Assembly (NCBI GenBank): GCA_026986785.1
Contig: JALSNW010000007.1
Coordinates: forward strand, 1-58,174
Direction of reading: 5' to 3'
From: Deltaproteobacteria bacterium
Lineage (GTDB): Bacteria; Desulfobacterota; Dissulfuribacteria; Dissulfuribacterales; QOAL01
Length of the DNA: 58,174 nucleotides
Shown here: piece by piece, positions 51,487 through 56,424 of the stretch
Position numbering within the stretch: the stretch's first letter is position 1
Layout of the letters: each line of letters begins with the position of its first letter
Program-made: the position numbers and the translations under genes
Notes under the pieces: model-generated
Told to the model about the DNA's origin: nothing
What the model saw: only the letters and a program-made list of their open reading frames with translations
The model's database searches: none

Positions 51487-51891
51487 TCATCCTTTCATCA
51501 TTTCCTCGTTCAGCATCTTGGCAATCGGTCTGAAGGCCTCGCAATTTTTGCACATCTCTATCTTGTTTCGTGGGCTGTTGCTGAGACATTTCTCGCAAAA
51601 TGTACCATTGATGAACCAACATAGCCTGCCAACATTGAACTGCCACGCAGGACAACCCTCTCTTACTTTATCAGCACACCGATTCACCTCCCAACAGGGA
51701 TGAAGTGCCTCATTGACTCCAGCCATTCTTGAAAGAAAGAAATATATCTGTCTTTCTATATGGACAGGGATCGAGCGCCAACCCTGTTCATAACTCGATA
51801 CTGCCTTGAGGGAAGTCCCAAGTAATTGGGCCATTTCTTTTTGTGTCTTTCCAAGAATCCTTCTTGCAGCTACAAATTCTCGTTTCTCCAT
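51487..51891 (-). CDS. XRE-type helix-turn-helix regulator with cysteine-rich two-CW domain
   Basis: A 134-residue protein. Residues about 5-50 are an HTH of the XRE group (ILGKTQKEMAQLLGTSLKAVSSYEQGWR). The C-terminal half has cysteines and tryptophans arranged as in two-CW proteins (PCWEVNRC, EGCPAW, RLCWF, CEKC, MCKNC). Ten Cys suggest bound metal or a redox sensor. It is divergent from the selenocytochrome operon, so it is a good candidate regulator; this is inference. The ATG at 51891 is preferred over a TTG ten codons upstream. No clear ribosome site. Confidence 0.8.
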   Translation of the reverse strand: MEKREFVAARRILGKTQKEMAQLLGTSLKAVSSYEQGWRSIPVHIERQIYFFLSRMAGVNEALHPCWEVNRCADKVREGCPAWQFNVGRLCWFINGTFCEKCLSNSPRNKIEMCKNCEAFRPIAKMLNEEMMKG

Positions 51892-51970
51892 AGCGTTCAA
51901 TTTAATTAATGTCAAAATCAAAGGACAACACTTTCTCTATTAGAAAGATAATTTTTTGTTGAAAAATAAG

Positions 51971-52097: not shown

Positions 52098-53444
52098 ATG
52101 AAAAGTCCACTTTCCAAAGGATTTCTACTGACAGCGCTAATCTTGATCATTTCCCCATGCATGAATGCGTGGACGGCAGAAGAAGATACGTCTGACAGCA
52201 GTCAGTGCGTAGCCTGCCACACAGACCTCGAAGAGATGGATGATTATGGTGCAAAGGCAGCCAGCGCTGCTGCTGCGGTGGCTGGCTGAGGTGTCTCTGC
52301 ACCCCAGGTAAGGGGGCGCGATACCTTTGGAGTAGCCAAGGATTTCTTAGATACACCTCACGGTGAACTTGGCTGTCGTTACTGTCACAAGGGCCAAAAT
52401 GTAGACGACGAAGAAGAGGCCCACAAAGGCATTATAAAAGATCCATCCGATGCCCAGGGCGGGGGGGTCTGTAGGGAATGTCACGAGGACATCACTTCAA
52501 CCTATAAGGATTCCATGCACTATACCCTCAATGGGATAATGGACATAGTCAAGACTATTTCCCAGCCTCATAAGCTAAAAGACACCCTGCTTCCAGAGGC
52601 ATGGAAATTGGATTGTGCTGAATGTCATGCCAGCTGTGGAAGCTGCCACGTGGCTTGGCCCCATGTGTCAAAGGGTGGACTAATCGACCGACACAGGTTC
52701 CAAAAGAAGCCGCCCATGGAAAAGACCTGTTTTGGTTGTCATGGTTCCCGCTTTGCCGGTGAATATGTAGGTTTCCTTGGGGAGAATGCAGATGTTCATT
52801 ACTCCAAGGGCCAGATGGAGTGTTACGACTGTCACAAGGGCTCGCAATTTCACGAAACCAAACCCAAGGGAGTAAAACGCTATTATGCCACAGAAACACC
52901 AAGGTGCGAACAGTGCCACCCAGATGCAGTGCCAGGCAGATCAAGGATACCCATGCACAATGCCCACGGGAAAAACGTACTGGCCTGTCAGGTGTGCCAT
53001 GCCACTACATACTTCAACTGCCAAAACTGCCATGTATCTCTCGATGTAAAGAAAGAAGGGGAAATAAAGGTAATATTTCCATCTGATCCACTCTATACCT
53101 TCAAGATCGGGAAAAATATAGATATTGGTCCAAACAATCCATACAAGTACAACCTTGTAAGGCATTCTCCCATGAGGAAGGATTCCCTGGCATCCTTGCG
53201 CTATTTCCAGGCCGTGATCAAGGGAAAGCCTGGTCCCAAGGACCTGATTGCCAACTGGGATGCACTTCCTACCTGGAATTCCGCTGCTGTTCACAGCATC
53301 CAGAGAAAAACGAGACAGAACCAATCGTGTAATTCCTGTCATGGGGTCAAGGAGCTTTTCCTCACCAAGGACGACATAAGGCCAGAAGATCCCAAGGCTA
53401 ACTACAAGGTGGTGGCAAAGGTTCCACCCAAGATAAAGAAATAG
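52098..53444 (+). CDS. Predicted selenocysteine-containing undecahaem c-type cytochrome
   Basis: Read through the in-frame TGA at 52287-52289 as selenocysteine 64, giving 448 residues. GAGGAGG lies 8 nt before the ATG. A signal peptide (MKSPLSKGFLLTALILIISP...) is followed by CVACH at 37-41, an Ala-rich stretch AASAAAAVAG, Sec64, then ten more CxxCH motifs: CRYCH, CRECH, CAECH, CGSCH, CFGCH, CYDCH, CEQCH, CQVCH, CQNCH, CNSCH. Eleven haems in total, in the periplasm. No stop lies between TGA and 52515, and CRYCH and CRECH fall there before any ATG. Read as two genes, the second would start at 52515 and lose these haems and a signal peptide. First gene of the four-gene operon. Function unknown; Sec suggests chemistry with Se, S or a redox centre. 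Confidence 0.85.
52290..52325 (+). promoter_or_regulatory. Bacterial SECIS-like stem-loop after the in-frame TGA
   Basis: Directly after the TGA: GGTGTC (52290-52295) pairs with GATACC (52320-52325) using one G-T pair, and CCCC (52302-52305) pairs with GGGG (52312-52315) around the apical loop AGGTAA (52306-52311). Inner bases 52296-52301 and 52316-52319 form an irregular internal loop with a few possible pairs. The loop GGT is 17 nt after the TGA; the known bacterial loop of fdhF is AGGUCU at a similar distance, as I remember it. Confidence 0.75.
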
Positions 53445-53471
53445 CGGACGAACCAGGAAAGGAGTGGCCAA

Positions 53472-54443
53472 ATGCACAAGATAATACAAGGCAACATGAT
53501 ATGTTTACTGGTGATGGTGGTATTAGCTTCTGCCGTCAGTTCCCCTGGCTGGGTATCGGCGGCCGGGACAGCCCCACTGGTTTCAACTGATTGGCTGGAC
53601 AAGCACAAGTCGGACAAGGCGGTTGTCATCGTAGATGTACGTAGCGATGCAAACTACGGCTTTGCTCACATACCAAATGCAGTGAGTATCCCCTATACGG
53701 AACTGGAGCCCAAATCGACCACTGGACTCTTTGTGGTACCTGGGGAGAAGAAATTGACCGAACTATTCCAAAAGGCAGGGATAAACAAGAATTCCCATGT
53801 GGTCGTTTATGCCCATGGAAATACCGTTAGTGATGCCTCGAAGGCAGGGGCATCTTATTGGATATTCAAGGCCATGGGGCACAAGAAGGTCTCTATGCTC
53901 AACGGTGGATTCACCAAGTGGACTTTTGAAGGCAGAGTTGTGACCAACAAGGTCCCAAATAGGAAACGAGGCAATATCGTGGCCAAGAAGGACCCGTCTA
54001 TCTTTGCGGATTTCCATGAGGTGGCCAGGGTTGTTCAAAAGGGTGGTGCCATTCTCATGGATGCCAGAAATTCTGTTCAATATTTCGGCCATGAAAAAAG
54101 GGCAGACGTGCCATGTTATGGACATATACCCGGTGCCATTAATCTACCTGCTGATTTTCTGACCCACGCAGGTATCAATAGGGCTCCAGCCACCCTGAAG
54201 GAAAAAAAGGACCTGCAAAGGATGGTGACAGGTGTAGGTGTTCCCAGCACCAAGTCCACTACCATAATAGTTTATTGCAACACCGCTCAGTTGGCGGGGC
54301 TGAATTATTTGGTGTTGAAAGACATGCTTGGTTACAGAAATGTCAAGGTATACGACGGTTCAATGCTGGAATATTGCAAGCTCAAGGGAAAACTCCCAGT
54401 GGAAATTTTTTCCTGGAGCATAAACCCGCCCAAAAAACTGTAG
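53472..54443 (+). CDS. Exported tandem-domain rhodanese, catalytic Cys present
   Basis: A 323-residue periplasmic sulfurtransferase. The signal peptide is about 1-30 (ICLLVMVVLASAVSS...VSA). Two rhodanese domains follow: the first (about 35-160) has VVYAHGNTVS where the Cys should be, so it is the usual inactive half; the second (about 175-320) has the catalytic Cys at C269 in VYCNTAQLAG. Second gene of the operon, 27 nt after the cytochrome, with AGGAG 7 nt before the ATG. It could move sulfane sulfur or a selenium equivalent. Confidence 0.9.
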   Translation: MHKIIQGNMICLLVMVVLASAVSSPGWVSAAGTAPLVSTDWLDKHKSDKAVVIVDVRSDANYGFAHIPNAVSIPYTELEPKSTTGLFVVPGEKKLTELFQKAGINKNSHVVVYAHGNTVSDASKAGASYWIFKAMGHKKVSMLNGGFTKWTFEGRVVTNKVPNRKRGNIVAKKDPSIFADFHEVARVVQKGGAILMDARNSVQYFGHEKRADVPCYGHIPGAINLPADFLTHAGINRAPATLKEKKDLQRMVTGVGVPSTKSTTIIVYCNTAQLAGLNYLVLKDMLGYRNVKVYDGSMLEYCKLKGKLPVEIFSWSINPPKKL

Positions 54444-54464
54444 CAGGAGAAGGAGGGATACGAT

Positions 54465-55430
54465 ATGCGCCTCAAAATACGACTGACTATTGCCACAGTA
54501 GTGATGACTGCGGTGCTGATATGTGCAGGACTCGTCGCACCGCGGCAGTCTTCAGCTGCAAATGGTCTTGTGACAATCGAATGGTTATCGAAGCACCTCA
54601 ATGACAAAGGATTGATAATCCTGGATGTGAGGACTTTCCCTAAGTACATCAAGAGTCATATCCCAGGTGCCATCAGGGCCTTTGGGCCCTGGCAGGTAAC
54701 AAATGCCGACTTCATTGGTTTCATGACACCGCCAGTGGAACAATTGGAAAATATGCTCAGGGGATTTGGGGTATCAAACGACTCCCTGATCATAATCTAT
54801 GATCAGGGCATGACTTCCAGTGATACCTCGAAAAGTGCAAGGGCACTGTGGACATTGCACTATCTTGGACACACCAAATGCGCCATCTTAAATGGCGGAT
54901 TCAATGCCTGGGAGCAGAGGGAAAAACCCATCACTACCCAGCCAGCAGTACCCATGACAGGAACATTCAAGGCCAAAGTTGTGTCCAACAAGCTTATAAC
55001 CCTTGACGAGGTGAAGAAGAAACTCGGCAAAAAGAATTGCTGGTTTGTAGATCTCAGACAGCCCCATGAGCACTTTGGCCATGAAAAGAAGAGCTATATA
55101 TCTCGTTTTGGCCACCTTAGAGGCTCTCTTCTCATGCCATCTGCATATATGACCATAGGAGGACAGGATTTTTCACCTGCTTATCTAAGGAGCAAAGACA
55201 AATTGAGGCATATGGCAGCCGGGTGCGGTATCCCATCCGATCCGAATGCAGAGATTGTTGTCTATAGCAATACAGGTCTTGATGCTGCTCTGGGATATTT
55301 TGTCCTGAACGAGATCCTGGGTTACAAAAATGTAAGATTGTTTGATGGTTCCATGCTTGAGGCTTCCAAAGACAAGGATGTGCCAATCACCAGGTATTCC
55401 TGGGGTTGGAATGATTACAGAAATAAATAG
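54465..55430 (+). CDS. Exported tandem-domain rhodanese, catalytic Cys replaced by Ser
   Basis: A 321-residue paralogue of the preceding protein, with a signal peptide (MRLKIRLTIATVVMTAVLIC...). The first domain has IYDQGMTSSD at the active position; the second has VVYSNTGLDAALGYF, with Ser268 (codon AGC) in place of the catalytic Cys. It is not a recoded TGA. It should not be an active sulfurtransferase, and may bind ligand or partner. GGAGG lies 8 nt before the ATG and the gap from the previous gene is 21 nt. Confidence 0.9.
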   Translation: MRLKIRLTIATVVMTAVLICAGLVAPRQSSAANGLVTIEWLSKHLNDKGLIILDVRTFPKYIKSHIPGAIRAFGPWQVTNADFIGFMTPPVEQLENMLRGFGVSNDSLIIIYDQGMTSSDTSKSARALWTLHYLGHTKCAILNGGFNAWEQREKPITTQPAVPMTGTFKAKVVSNKLITLDEVKKKLGKKNCWFVDLRQPHEHFGHEKKSYISRFGHLRGSLLMPSAYMTIGGQDFSPAYLRSKDKLRHMAAGCGIPSDPNAEIVVYSNTGLDAALGYFVLNEILGYKNVRLFDGSMLEASKDKDVPITRYSWGWNDYRNK

Positions 55431-55457
55431 ACGAAGGGTGAGGGAGGTAAAAAACCT

Positions 55458-56336
55458 ATGAGGAGAAGTTGTATTAGCGTTACAATCGTAATAGCTGCTG
55501 CATTCATACTGACAGCCATTGGGAATGCCCGTGCAGGGGCACCACTGACCAATGCGGAAGGTGTTGGAGGGGTTGCCCTAAATCCCATGGCATATATCGC
55601 CAATCCTATCAAAGAGGGAGAAAAGGGTCTTTTTGGTGCTGGTATCGTATCAAAACCCCAACTTGGTATCTGGAATATCAGATTGTCTGAAAGCGGGGTA
55701 AACTGGTTTACCATAGGCGGTAATATCTCTTTTTTCAACAGGCTGGAACTCGGCTATTCCCATGAATTCATCGACATAGAAGACGTTCCAAAAACTGTTG
55801 ACAAGAACAATTTCACATTCAAGTTGAATCTTATCAAGGAAAATGATTTTGGCACGAAATTCCTACCAGCATTGTCTTTCGGAGGCATCTATAAGACAAC
55901 CGATGCTGACGATGACTTTGCCCTCAAAGACACAGAGGACTTCGACTTTTATTTCGTGGCCACGAAGATGATTCCTGGATTGCCTGTACCACTCATCCTC
56001 AACGCAGGTGTGCTCAACACCAAGGGTTATGTAAGAGGAGTTCTTGGTTTTGGAGATGACAGGGCCTGGGTATTTTTTGGCAATATAGATACAATACTCT
56101 TCGACAAGTTCATCGTTGGCTGGGAGTATGAACAAGAGGCCGAGGTAGGAGACGTGTTCAAGGGAGAAAAAGGGCAAAAACACACTACCCACTCCATGTG
56201 GGAGGCACATGTAGCATATATGTATAATGAGCACCTGACACTTGTAGGTTCATGGGCCTACACTGGGGATAGTGACTCGAGTGGCCAGGCTGCATTCGAT
56301 CATGCCTATGTCCTCTCACTGCAATACGCTTTTTAG
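55458..56336 (+). CDS. Outer-membrane beta-barrel protein (DUF3034-like)
   Basis: A 292-residue exported protein: signal peptide 1-27, then many amphipathic strands (LGIWNIRLSESGVNWFTIGGNIS, LELGYSHEFIDI, FKLNLIKENDFG, GFGDDRAWVFFGN, HVAYMYNEHLTLVGSWAYTG) and a terminal Phe (LQYAF), as expected of barrels assembled by Bam. It resembles the DUF3034 group by memory. Last gene of the operon, GGAGG 10 nt before the ATG. A porin for the substrate or the outer part of an electron conduit is inference. Confidence 0.85.
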   Translation: MRRSCISVTIVIAAAFILTAIGNARAGAPLTNAEGVGGVALNPMAYIANPIKEGEKGLFGAGIVSKPQLGIWNIRLSESGVNWFTIGGNISFFNRLELGYSHEFIDIEDVPKTVDKNNFTFKLNLIKENDFGTKFLPALSFGGIYKTTDADDDFALKDTEDFDFYFVATKMIPGLPVPLILNAGVLNTKGYVRGVLGFGDDRAWVFFGNIDTILFDKFIVGWEYEQEAEVGDVFKGEKGQKHTTHSMWEAHVAYMYNEHLTLVGSWAYTGDSDSSGQAAFDHAYVLSLQYAF

Positions 56337-56395
56337 ATAGGACTTGGAATCAATATAAGCAAAATAGCAGGGGAACCATCCATAATACGCTCTAC

Positions 56396-56424
56396 GGGCC
56401 CTTTGAAAGGGCCCTTTCTATTTT
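56396..56424 (+). terminator. Strong Rho-independent terminator after the porin gene
   Basis: GGGCCCTT, loop TGA, AAGGGCCC forms an 8-bp GC-rich stem followed by TTTCTATTTT. It is 59 nt after the porin stop and closes the cytochrome-rhodanese-rhodanese-porin operon. Confidence 0.9.

Follow-up and report, generated by a model that had tools for sequence, protein, structure and literature searches.

Among the closest described counterparts of the locus analysed here is ExtKL/MccSep together with the Geobacter ext operon (extHIJKLMNOPQS). Our locus is a four-gene unit in a 58,174-nucleotide stretch of a Desulfobacterota genome (assembly GCA_026986785.1, contig JALSNW010000007.1, positions 1 to 58,174, forward strand), which as a whole is referred to as the window. 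In both systems, the operon combines a rhodanese and an outer-membrane barrel with a secreted multiheme cytochrome c that contains a single selenocysteine (Sec) encoded by UGA. ExtKL proteins (model NF040886) have five hemes, and their Sec lies behind the hemes, at about 310-325, in a PDGUPTPN motif. In contrast, the window cytochrome has 11 hemes and carries Sec64 between hemes 1 and 2 in the motif G-U-[GA], and ExtI, ExtM, ExtN and ExtO have no part in the window's unit. The MccSep structures in the PDB (9wt8, 9wt9, 9wta-9wtc) belong to the ExtKL family; we found no other multiheme cytochrome c selenoprotein of solved structure, and literature searches returned no paper on MccSep.

Rhodaneses are sulfane-sulfur carriers, Sec is a strong and easily reduced nucleophile, and a heme chain provides an electrical connection with the quinone pool. 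Octaheme tetrathionate reductase (OTR; 1sp3; TIGR04315) and the octaheme sulfite reductase MccA/SirA are multiheme periplasmic cytochromes of sulfur-oxyanion reduction. The part of the window cytochrome behind Sec shows weak profile similarity, and possibly a weak fold similarity, to them, whereas its 11 hemes, its added N-terminal heme-plus-Sec module and its rhodanese partner set it apart. In Dethiobacter alkaliphilus, which reportedly has no dsr, sat or psr, the multiheme cytochrome DealDRAFT_1917 lies next to the rhodanese DealDRAFT_1918 and is upregulated on thiosulfate versus ferrihydrite in strain AHT1 (PMC10376724, PMC5609068). This pair, called SirA-like, resembles the locus in the direct adjacency of its two genes and in its response to thiosulfate; it differs in being annotated as octaheme or sulfurtransferase (PMC10376724, PMC5609068). 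Neither paper uses the word 'selenocysteine' in its main text or describes the wide family.

On sequence grounds, multiheme cytochrome c selenoproteins comprise a second family, to which the window cytochrome belongs; this family is unrelated to ExtKL/MccSep, and its Sec is placed differently. In nearly all cases a sulfur-carrying rhodanese is encoded next to the cytochrome or fused to it, so the cytochrome probably acts as an extracytoplasmic enzyme that exchanges electrons with sulfur atoms.

Selenocysteine recoding

The recoded gene comprises the following features.

52098..53444, + strand: 11-heme c-type cytochrome (11 CXXCH), almost certainly a selenoprotein (Sec64; one in-frame TGA), with an N-terminal signal peptide
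52287..52289, + strand: UGA, almost certainly the selenocysteine codon, at residue 64 in the motif G-U-[GA]; the site is kept in relatives
52288..52327, + strand: SECIS-like hairpin with the apical loop AGGTAA at 52306-52311, 16 nt past the UGA; called from its fold, a bSECIS-like rule, covariation and synonymous-codon constraint

The cytochrome gene has 449 codons including the stop; between its ATG at 52098 and its stop at 53444, the reading frame is interrupted by the TGA at codon 64 alone. An ordinary open reading frame (ORF) call puts the start of this gene at 52515, so that the signal peptide and three hemes are lost. Since the UGA severs the signal peptide and the first heme, the family is easily overlooked by annotation. 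The comparisons below lead us to conclude that the UGA almost certainly encodes selenocysteine. A first-pass annotation of the window had spoken of a 'Sec-cytochrome', a term that can refer to selenocysteine or to Sec-dependent export; the former sense is correct, and a signal peptide, which corresponds to the latter, is likewise present.

Relatives were collected in two ways. A protein search in 148 genomes gave 21 matches in 19 genomes, the window's own included: exactly one in-frame TGA is found in 20 of these, and the remaining one is cut by a contig start. A scan of genome contigs gave 196 relatives. Among the best 80, the TGA occupies the identical codon in 78, one has Leu (TTG, L129), one has an unreadable N-terminus (L136) and none has Cys at the site. 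Beyond these 78, the UGA is present in the window and in six distant relatives. Among 400 sampled Chloroflexota genomes there were 14 matches, of which 13 have the TGA and the fourteenth stops short of the site. Residue 64 is invariant in alignments of 20 and 78 rows, and the Gly-Sec pair (Sec drawn as C) is invariant in the latter. These counts, as well as the hairpin counts given below, take in related sequences and are not independent events; given the spread over phyla, chance is an untenable explanation for the conservation of the site. In the Anaerolineae locus L129 (9001-10194), TTG replaces the UGA while the CCGTTGG loop sequence is retained, a rare loss of Sec in which Cys is not the replacement.

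The region downstream of the codon is constrained as well. The rule for a bacterial selenocysteine insertion sequence (bSECIS-like) applied here places a hairpin loop 16-37 nt after the UGA, with a G among the first two bases of the loop. The window conforms to this rule, as do 78 of 84 UGA sites, compared with 1235 of 4200 in-gene control positions (29%), and the mean folding energy (dG) of the hairpin is -17.4 at UGA sites versus -10.1 at controls. Position +20 after the UGA is T in 84/84 sequences and position +18 is G in 82/84. The stem pairs +12/+26 and +13/+25 are kept, by several pair types, in 74/82 and 75/82 sequences, where about 43 and 40 are expected. Furthermore, Leu within the hairpin loop is encoded by TTG or TTA in all 57 cases, versus 17% across the rest of the genes. 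Rfam at gathering score recognises only tRNAs in the window, so the SECIS call rests on the fold, the rule, covariation and the codon tests. SelA, SelB and tRNA-Sec are encoded in the window's genome, and SelB is present in four carriers from other phyla.

The 11-heme cytochrome family

The 11 CXXCH motifs of the cytochrome are conserved across the family, and its Pfam matches are to cytochrome c7/c3 domains. NCBIfam holds no above-cut-off model for the window cytochrome or for the members scanned singly; matches of other family members are to general multiheme families. TIGR04315 gives a weak match in two of 20 family members and none in eight scanned singly. Lacking a TIGR04315 match and having 11 hemes instead of eight, the window cytochrome falls outside the OTR family by these two features.

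Membership in ExtKL or the ext operon was considered and rejected. The cytochrome does not match NF040886 (cut-off 250 bits) and shows no similarity around Sec. The two rhodaneses score 71.6 and 58.1 bits against the ExtH model NF040901, below its cut-off of 200, and the DUF3034 barrel has no NCBIfam match. The likeness to Geobacter ext drawn in the first-pass annotation thus does not extend to membership, since cytochrome, rhodaneses and barrel all fail the ext models. The sole NF040886 match in the window's genome is a multiheme cytochrome without an in-frame stop (G000:C13:22663-23457, L140) that scores 56.7 bits (cut-off 250). True ExtKL with UGA occurs in the order mates G022, G026 and G028, and above-cut-off ExtKL matches without an in-frame stop, some in tandem, are found in G337:C10, G072:C12 and G263:C132. 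Unlike the 11-heme family, ExtKL seems to have Sec-less members.

For structure prediction with AlphaFold, a 20-row alignment performed poorly (predicted local distance difference test, pLDDT, of 51) and a run with 78 rows was used (pLDDT 81.7; predicted template-modelling score, pTM, of 0.81). Compared with a chosen list of structures, the model best matches OTR from Shewanella (1sp3), weakly, with Z 8.6 over 286 residues and a root-mean-square deviation of 5.2; MccA sulfite reductase comes next, far lower. In the model, the OTR-like alignment spans residues 59-422 of the mature chain, and the segment with heme 1 and Sec would be an N-terminal addition. P0001 searched alone found no relative with a solved structure.

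The available text of a May 2026 inventory gives 119 prokaryotic selenoprotein families, with ExtKL, GSU2204 and a GenBank-annotated TIGR04315 protein as heme-related entries (PMC13188914). By the definitions of that inventory, the 11-heme family is not among the heme-related entries of this text; the GenBank-annotated Sec protein under TIGR04315 (WP_331457571) was compared with it by its listing (PMC13188914). Literature searches found no paper describing the family as a selenoprotein, and it is apparently undescribed.

The family occurs in at least six bacterial phyla. In a tree of its members, Bacillota form one clade and most Chloroflexota group with Actinomycetota. A Nitrospirae metagenome-assembled genome (MAG) falls within the Desulfobacterota clade, which could be due to transfer or to a binning error. 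No relative was found in viral contigs. Two paralogues in one Anaerolineae MAG (L119, 602-2758, and L126, 484-2058) have extra heme motifs, 18 and 12 in total, and a C-terminal hydrophobic segment. A Chloroflexota multiheme protein (G370:C30:27077-27844, L167) aligns with the family over the middle region only and has no in-frame stop; it is a possible Sec-less relative.

The rhodanese partner and the neighbouring genes

Downstream of the cytochrome gene, the window encodes two rhodaneses.

53472..54443, + strand: RhoA, exported two-domain rhodanese (PF00581 twice) with catalytic-loop Cys269 (codon 54276-54278)
54465..55430, + strand: RhoB, exported two-domain rhodanese (PF00581) with Ser268 in place of the catalytic Cys (codon 55266-55268)

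The association of cytochrome and rhodanese extends over the whole family. In a profile search over 88 loci, a rhodanese adjoins the cytochrome gene in 72, across phyla, and in four loci (L053, L079, L108, L137) the two proteins are fused. Rhodanese ORFs number 92 in the 301 kb near the cytochrome (within about 2 kb) versus two in the remaining 803 kb of flank, an enrichment of about 120-fold. The rhodanese gene lies downstream in Bacillota and most Desulfobacterota, and upstream in Actinomycetota and most Chloroflexota. Separation of the genes in other genomes would have counted against the first-pass annotation; for the cytochrome–rhodanese pair, linkage, enrichment and fusions show the opposite.

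In the clade of the window, the state of the catalytic loop is fixed: RhoA has Cys (YCN) in 18/18 readable orthologues and RhoB has Ser (YSN/YSD), likewise in 18/18. RhoA alone therefore has the feature of rhodanese activity. The description of RhoA in the first-pass annotation as active-looking agrees with its Cys269; RhoB, described there as Cys-less, indeed has its active-site Cys replaced by Ser, although it contains cysteines elsewhere.

Chloroflexota loci add an Fe–S subunit, as Fer4_11 with NrfD (L102) or Fer4_11 with cytochrome b561 (L115, L132 and L138, the subunits of the last two being assigned by similarity to L115). With their NrfD or b-type membrane subunit, Fe–S subunit and rhodanese, these four loci resemble Psr/Phs (PsrABC). 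The difference is that the Sec-cytochrome occupies the place expected for the molybdopterin subunit; no such subunit was recognised among the listed ORFs of these loci, only part of which were scanned. By analogy, the Sec-cytochrome unit would have wiring like Psr/Phs, a multiheme sulfur enzyme like OTR/MccA and parts parallel to those of ext. In L058 (1-4500), cysteine desulfurase-like and TusA-like genes lie near the Sec-cytochrome beyond the unit, which recalls sulfur or selenium donation.

The remaining features of the window's locus are as follows.

55458..56336, + strand: DUF3034 protein (PF11231, 4e-16), a probable outer-membrane beta-barrel with C-terminal Phe, accessory
56396..56414, + strand: intrinsic terminator, hairpin GGGCCCTTTGAAAGGGCCC followed by TTTCTATTTT
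51487..51921, - strand: divergent helix-turn-helix (HTH) protein with a two-CW domain (PF01381, NF045718), likely a regulator

According to the ORF list, the four co-directional genes span 52098-56336 with intergenic gaps of 27, 21 and 27 nt. A Shine-Dalgarno-like site precedes each start (in gene order AGGAGGT, GGAAAGGAG, AGGAGGG and GGGAGGT), and all four products begin, as judged from their sequences, with a hydrophobic signal-like stretch. The four-gene unit of the first-pass annotation, with its gaps of 21-27 nt, ribosome sites, export signals and closing terminator, is confirmed in each of these respects. The barrel is accessory: both the DUF3034 protein and the divergent two-CW protein are confined to the window's clade, which makes the four genes a local form of a more widespread core of two. 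The position of the two-CW protein is conserved in L059, L061, L062, L063, L044 and L067, and it is likely the regulator of the unit in this clade. L062 and L063 have a second two-CW stretch downstream of the unit.

Proposed function

We propose that the two-gene core encodes a periplasmic two-protein sulfane-sulfur oxidoreductase, an interpretation which holds about half of our confidence. Polysulfide, elemental sulfur or thiosulfate would supply sulfane sulfur to the catalytic cysteine of the exported rhodanese, which would pass it to the Sec64 selenolate of the 11-heme cytochrome, giving a selenium–sulfur adduct. Electrons from the heme chain would then free sulfide and restore the selenolate; alternatively, in the reversed direction, the heme chain would take electrons from sulfide. 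In Chloroflexota, the membrane b-type or NrfD/Fe–S subunits would connect the hemes to the quinone pool, and in the window's organism, whose genome has DsrA, the redox partner would be encoded elsewhere. The DUF3034 barrel would probably let substrate pass at the outer membrane or provide an anchor there. Support is good for the Sec residue and for the linkage to rhodanese; we infer the reaction, with its Se–S adduct, substrate and direction. The first-pass annotation had electrons or sulfane/selane groups moving through the periplasm. The cytochrome–rhodanese linkage supports such an envelope system for electrons and for sulfane sulfur, whereas selenium as a substrate is not supported; selenium enters as the residue selenocysteine.

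DealDRAFT_1917 is a likely, though not proven, member of the Sec-cytochrome family. The cytochrome–rhodanese arrangement with the UGA is present in a 3.1 Mb genome from the same family as a Dethiobacter MAG; that this genome is D. alkaliphilus is our inference. The upregulation of DealDRAFT_1917 on thiosulfate fits the sulfane-sulfur model.

Several observations weigh against the proposed oxidoreductase. The Z score of 8.6 to 1sp3 borders on significance, and Foldseek against the PDB gave no match at E < 0.001. Confidence in the model is low at the Sec loop (pLDDT about 50), and no Cys lies near Sec in the sequence to resolve a Se–S adduct. At 16 loci no rhodanese adjoins the cytochrome, although about seven of these end near the cytochrome on the relevant side. 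In addition, the homologue of DealDRAFT_1917 in strain Z-1002 is expressed during Fe(II) oxidation (PMC10376724), a poor fit to a pure sulfur reductase.

Sec64 might instead be a heme ligand which tunes potential or spin state; the cytochrome would only shuttle electrons and the rhodanese would be the chemical partner, binding or delivering sulfur. The 11 hemes are matched by about 9-10 conserved His outside the CXXCH motifs, which leaves one or two hemes without an obvious distal His, and Sec, which has no CxxU-type partner, falls between hemes 1 and 2, just past the former. However, a ligand position would normally tolerate Cys, Met or His in distant members, yet none is seen, and fusion to an active rhodanese suggests that sulfur gets to the cytochrome. 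We consider this role unlikely.

A similarly low probability applies to sulfide or polysulfide oxidation, in which the same parts would run in reverse, electrons would pass to the quinone pool or to extracellular acceptors and the barrel would be an exit for electrons or sulfur. Among the relatives are groups that are sulfide-oxidising or linked to iron (Desulfurivibrionaceae, Dethiobacter), and the expression in strain Z-1002 points in the same direction (PMC10376724), whereas the thiosulfate response of strain AHT1 argues against it (PMC10376724) and the window's unit bears no genetic sign of direction.

Selenite or tellurite reduction, functionally as in the Geobacter ext operon, is suggested by like parts, namely a Sec multiheme cytochrome, a rhodanese and an outer-membrane barrel (PMC5877670), and by the additional genes of L058. 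It appears very improbable in view of the failed ext models, the barrel that is not conserved and the wide spread among sulfur-cycling lineages of several phyla. Finally, that the TGA is a true stop, in a pseudogene or between two separate proteins, is favoured by the in-frame TGA alone and can practically be dismissed, as the codon is shared down to about 30% identity in at least six phyla, the protein is conserved on both sides, and both the SECIS constraint and the Sec machinery are present.

Implications

The tie to a rhodanese makes the Sec-cytochrome a testable candidate for sulfane-sulfur respiration in bacteria without molybdopterin sulfur reductases. Tentatively, the family may constitute a class of respiratory enzymes not described so far, a Sec-based sulfane-sulfur (polysulfide/thiosulfate) reductase which would contain no molybdenum, replace the catalytic subunit of Psr/Phs and supply the missing sulfur-reduction step in, for example, D. 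alkaliphilus. The Sec-cytochrome and its rhodanese are also a possible candidate for the step with which sulfur disproportionation begins.

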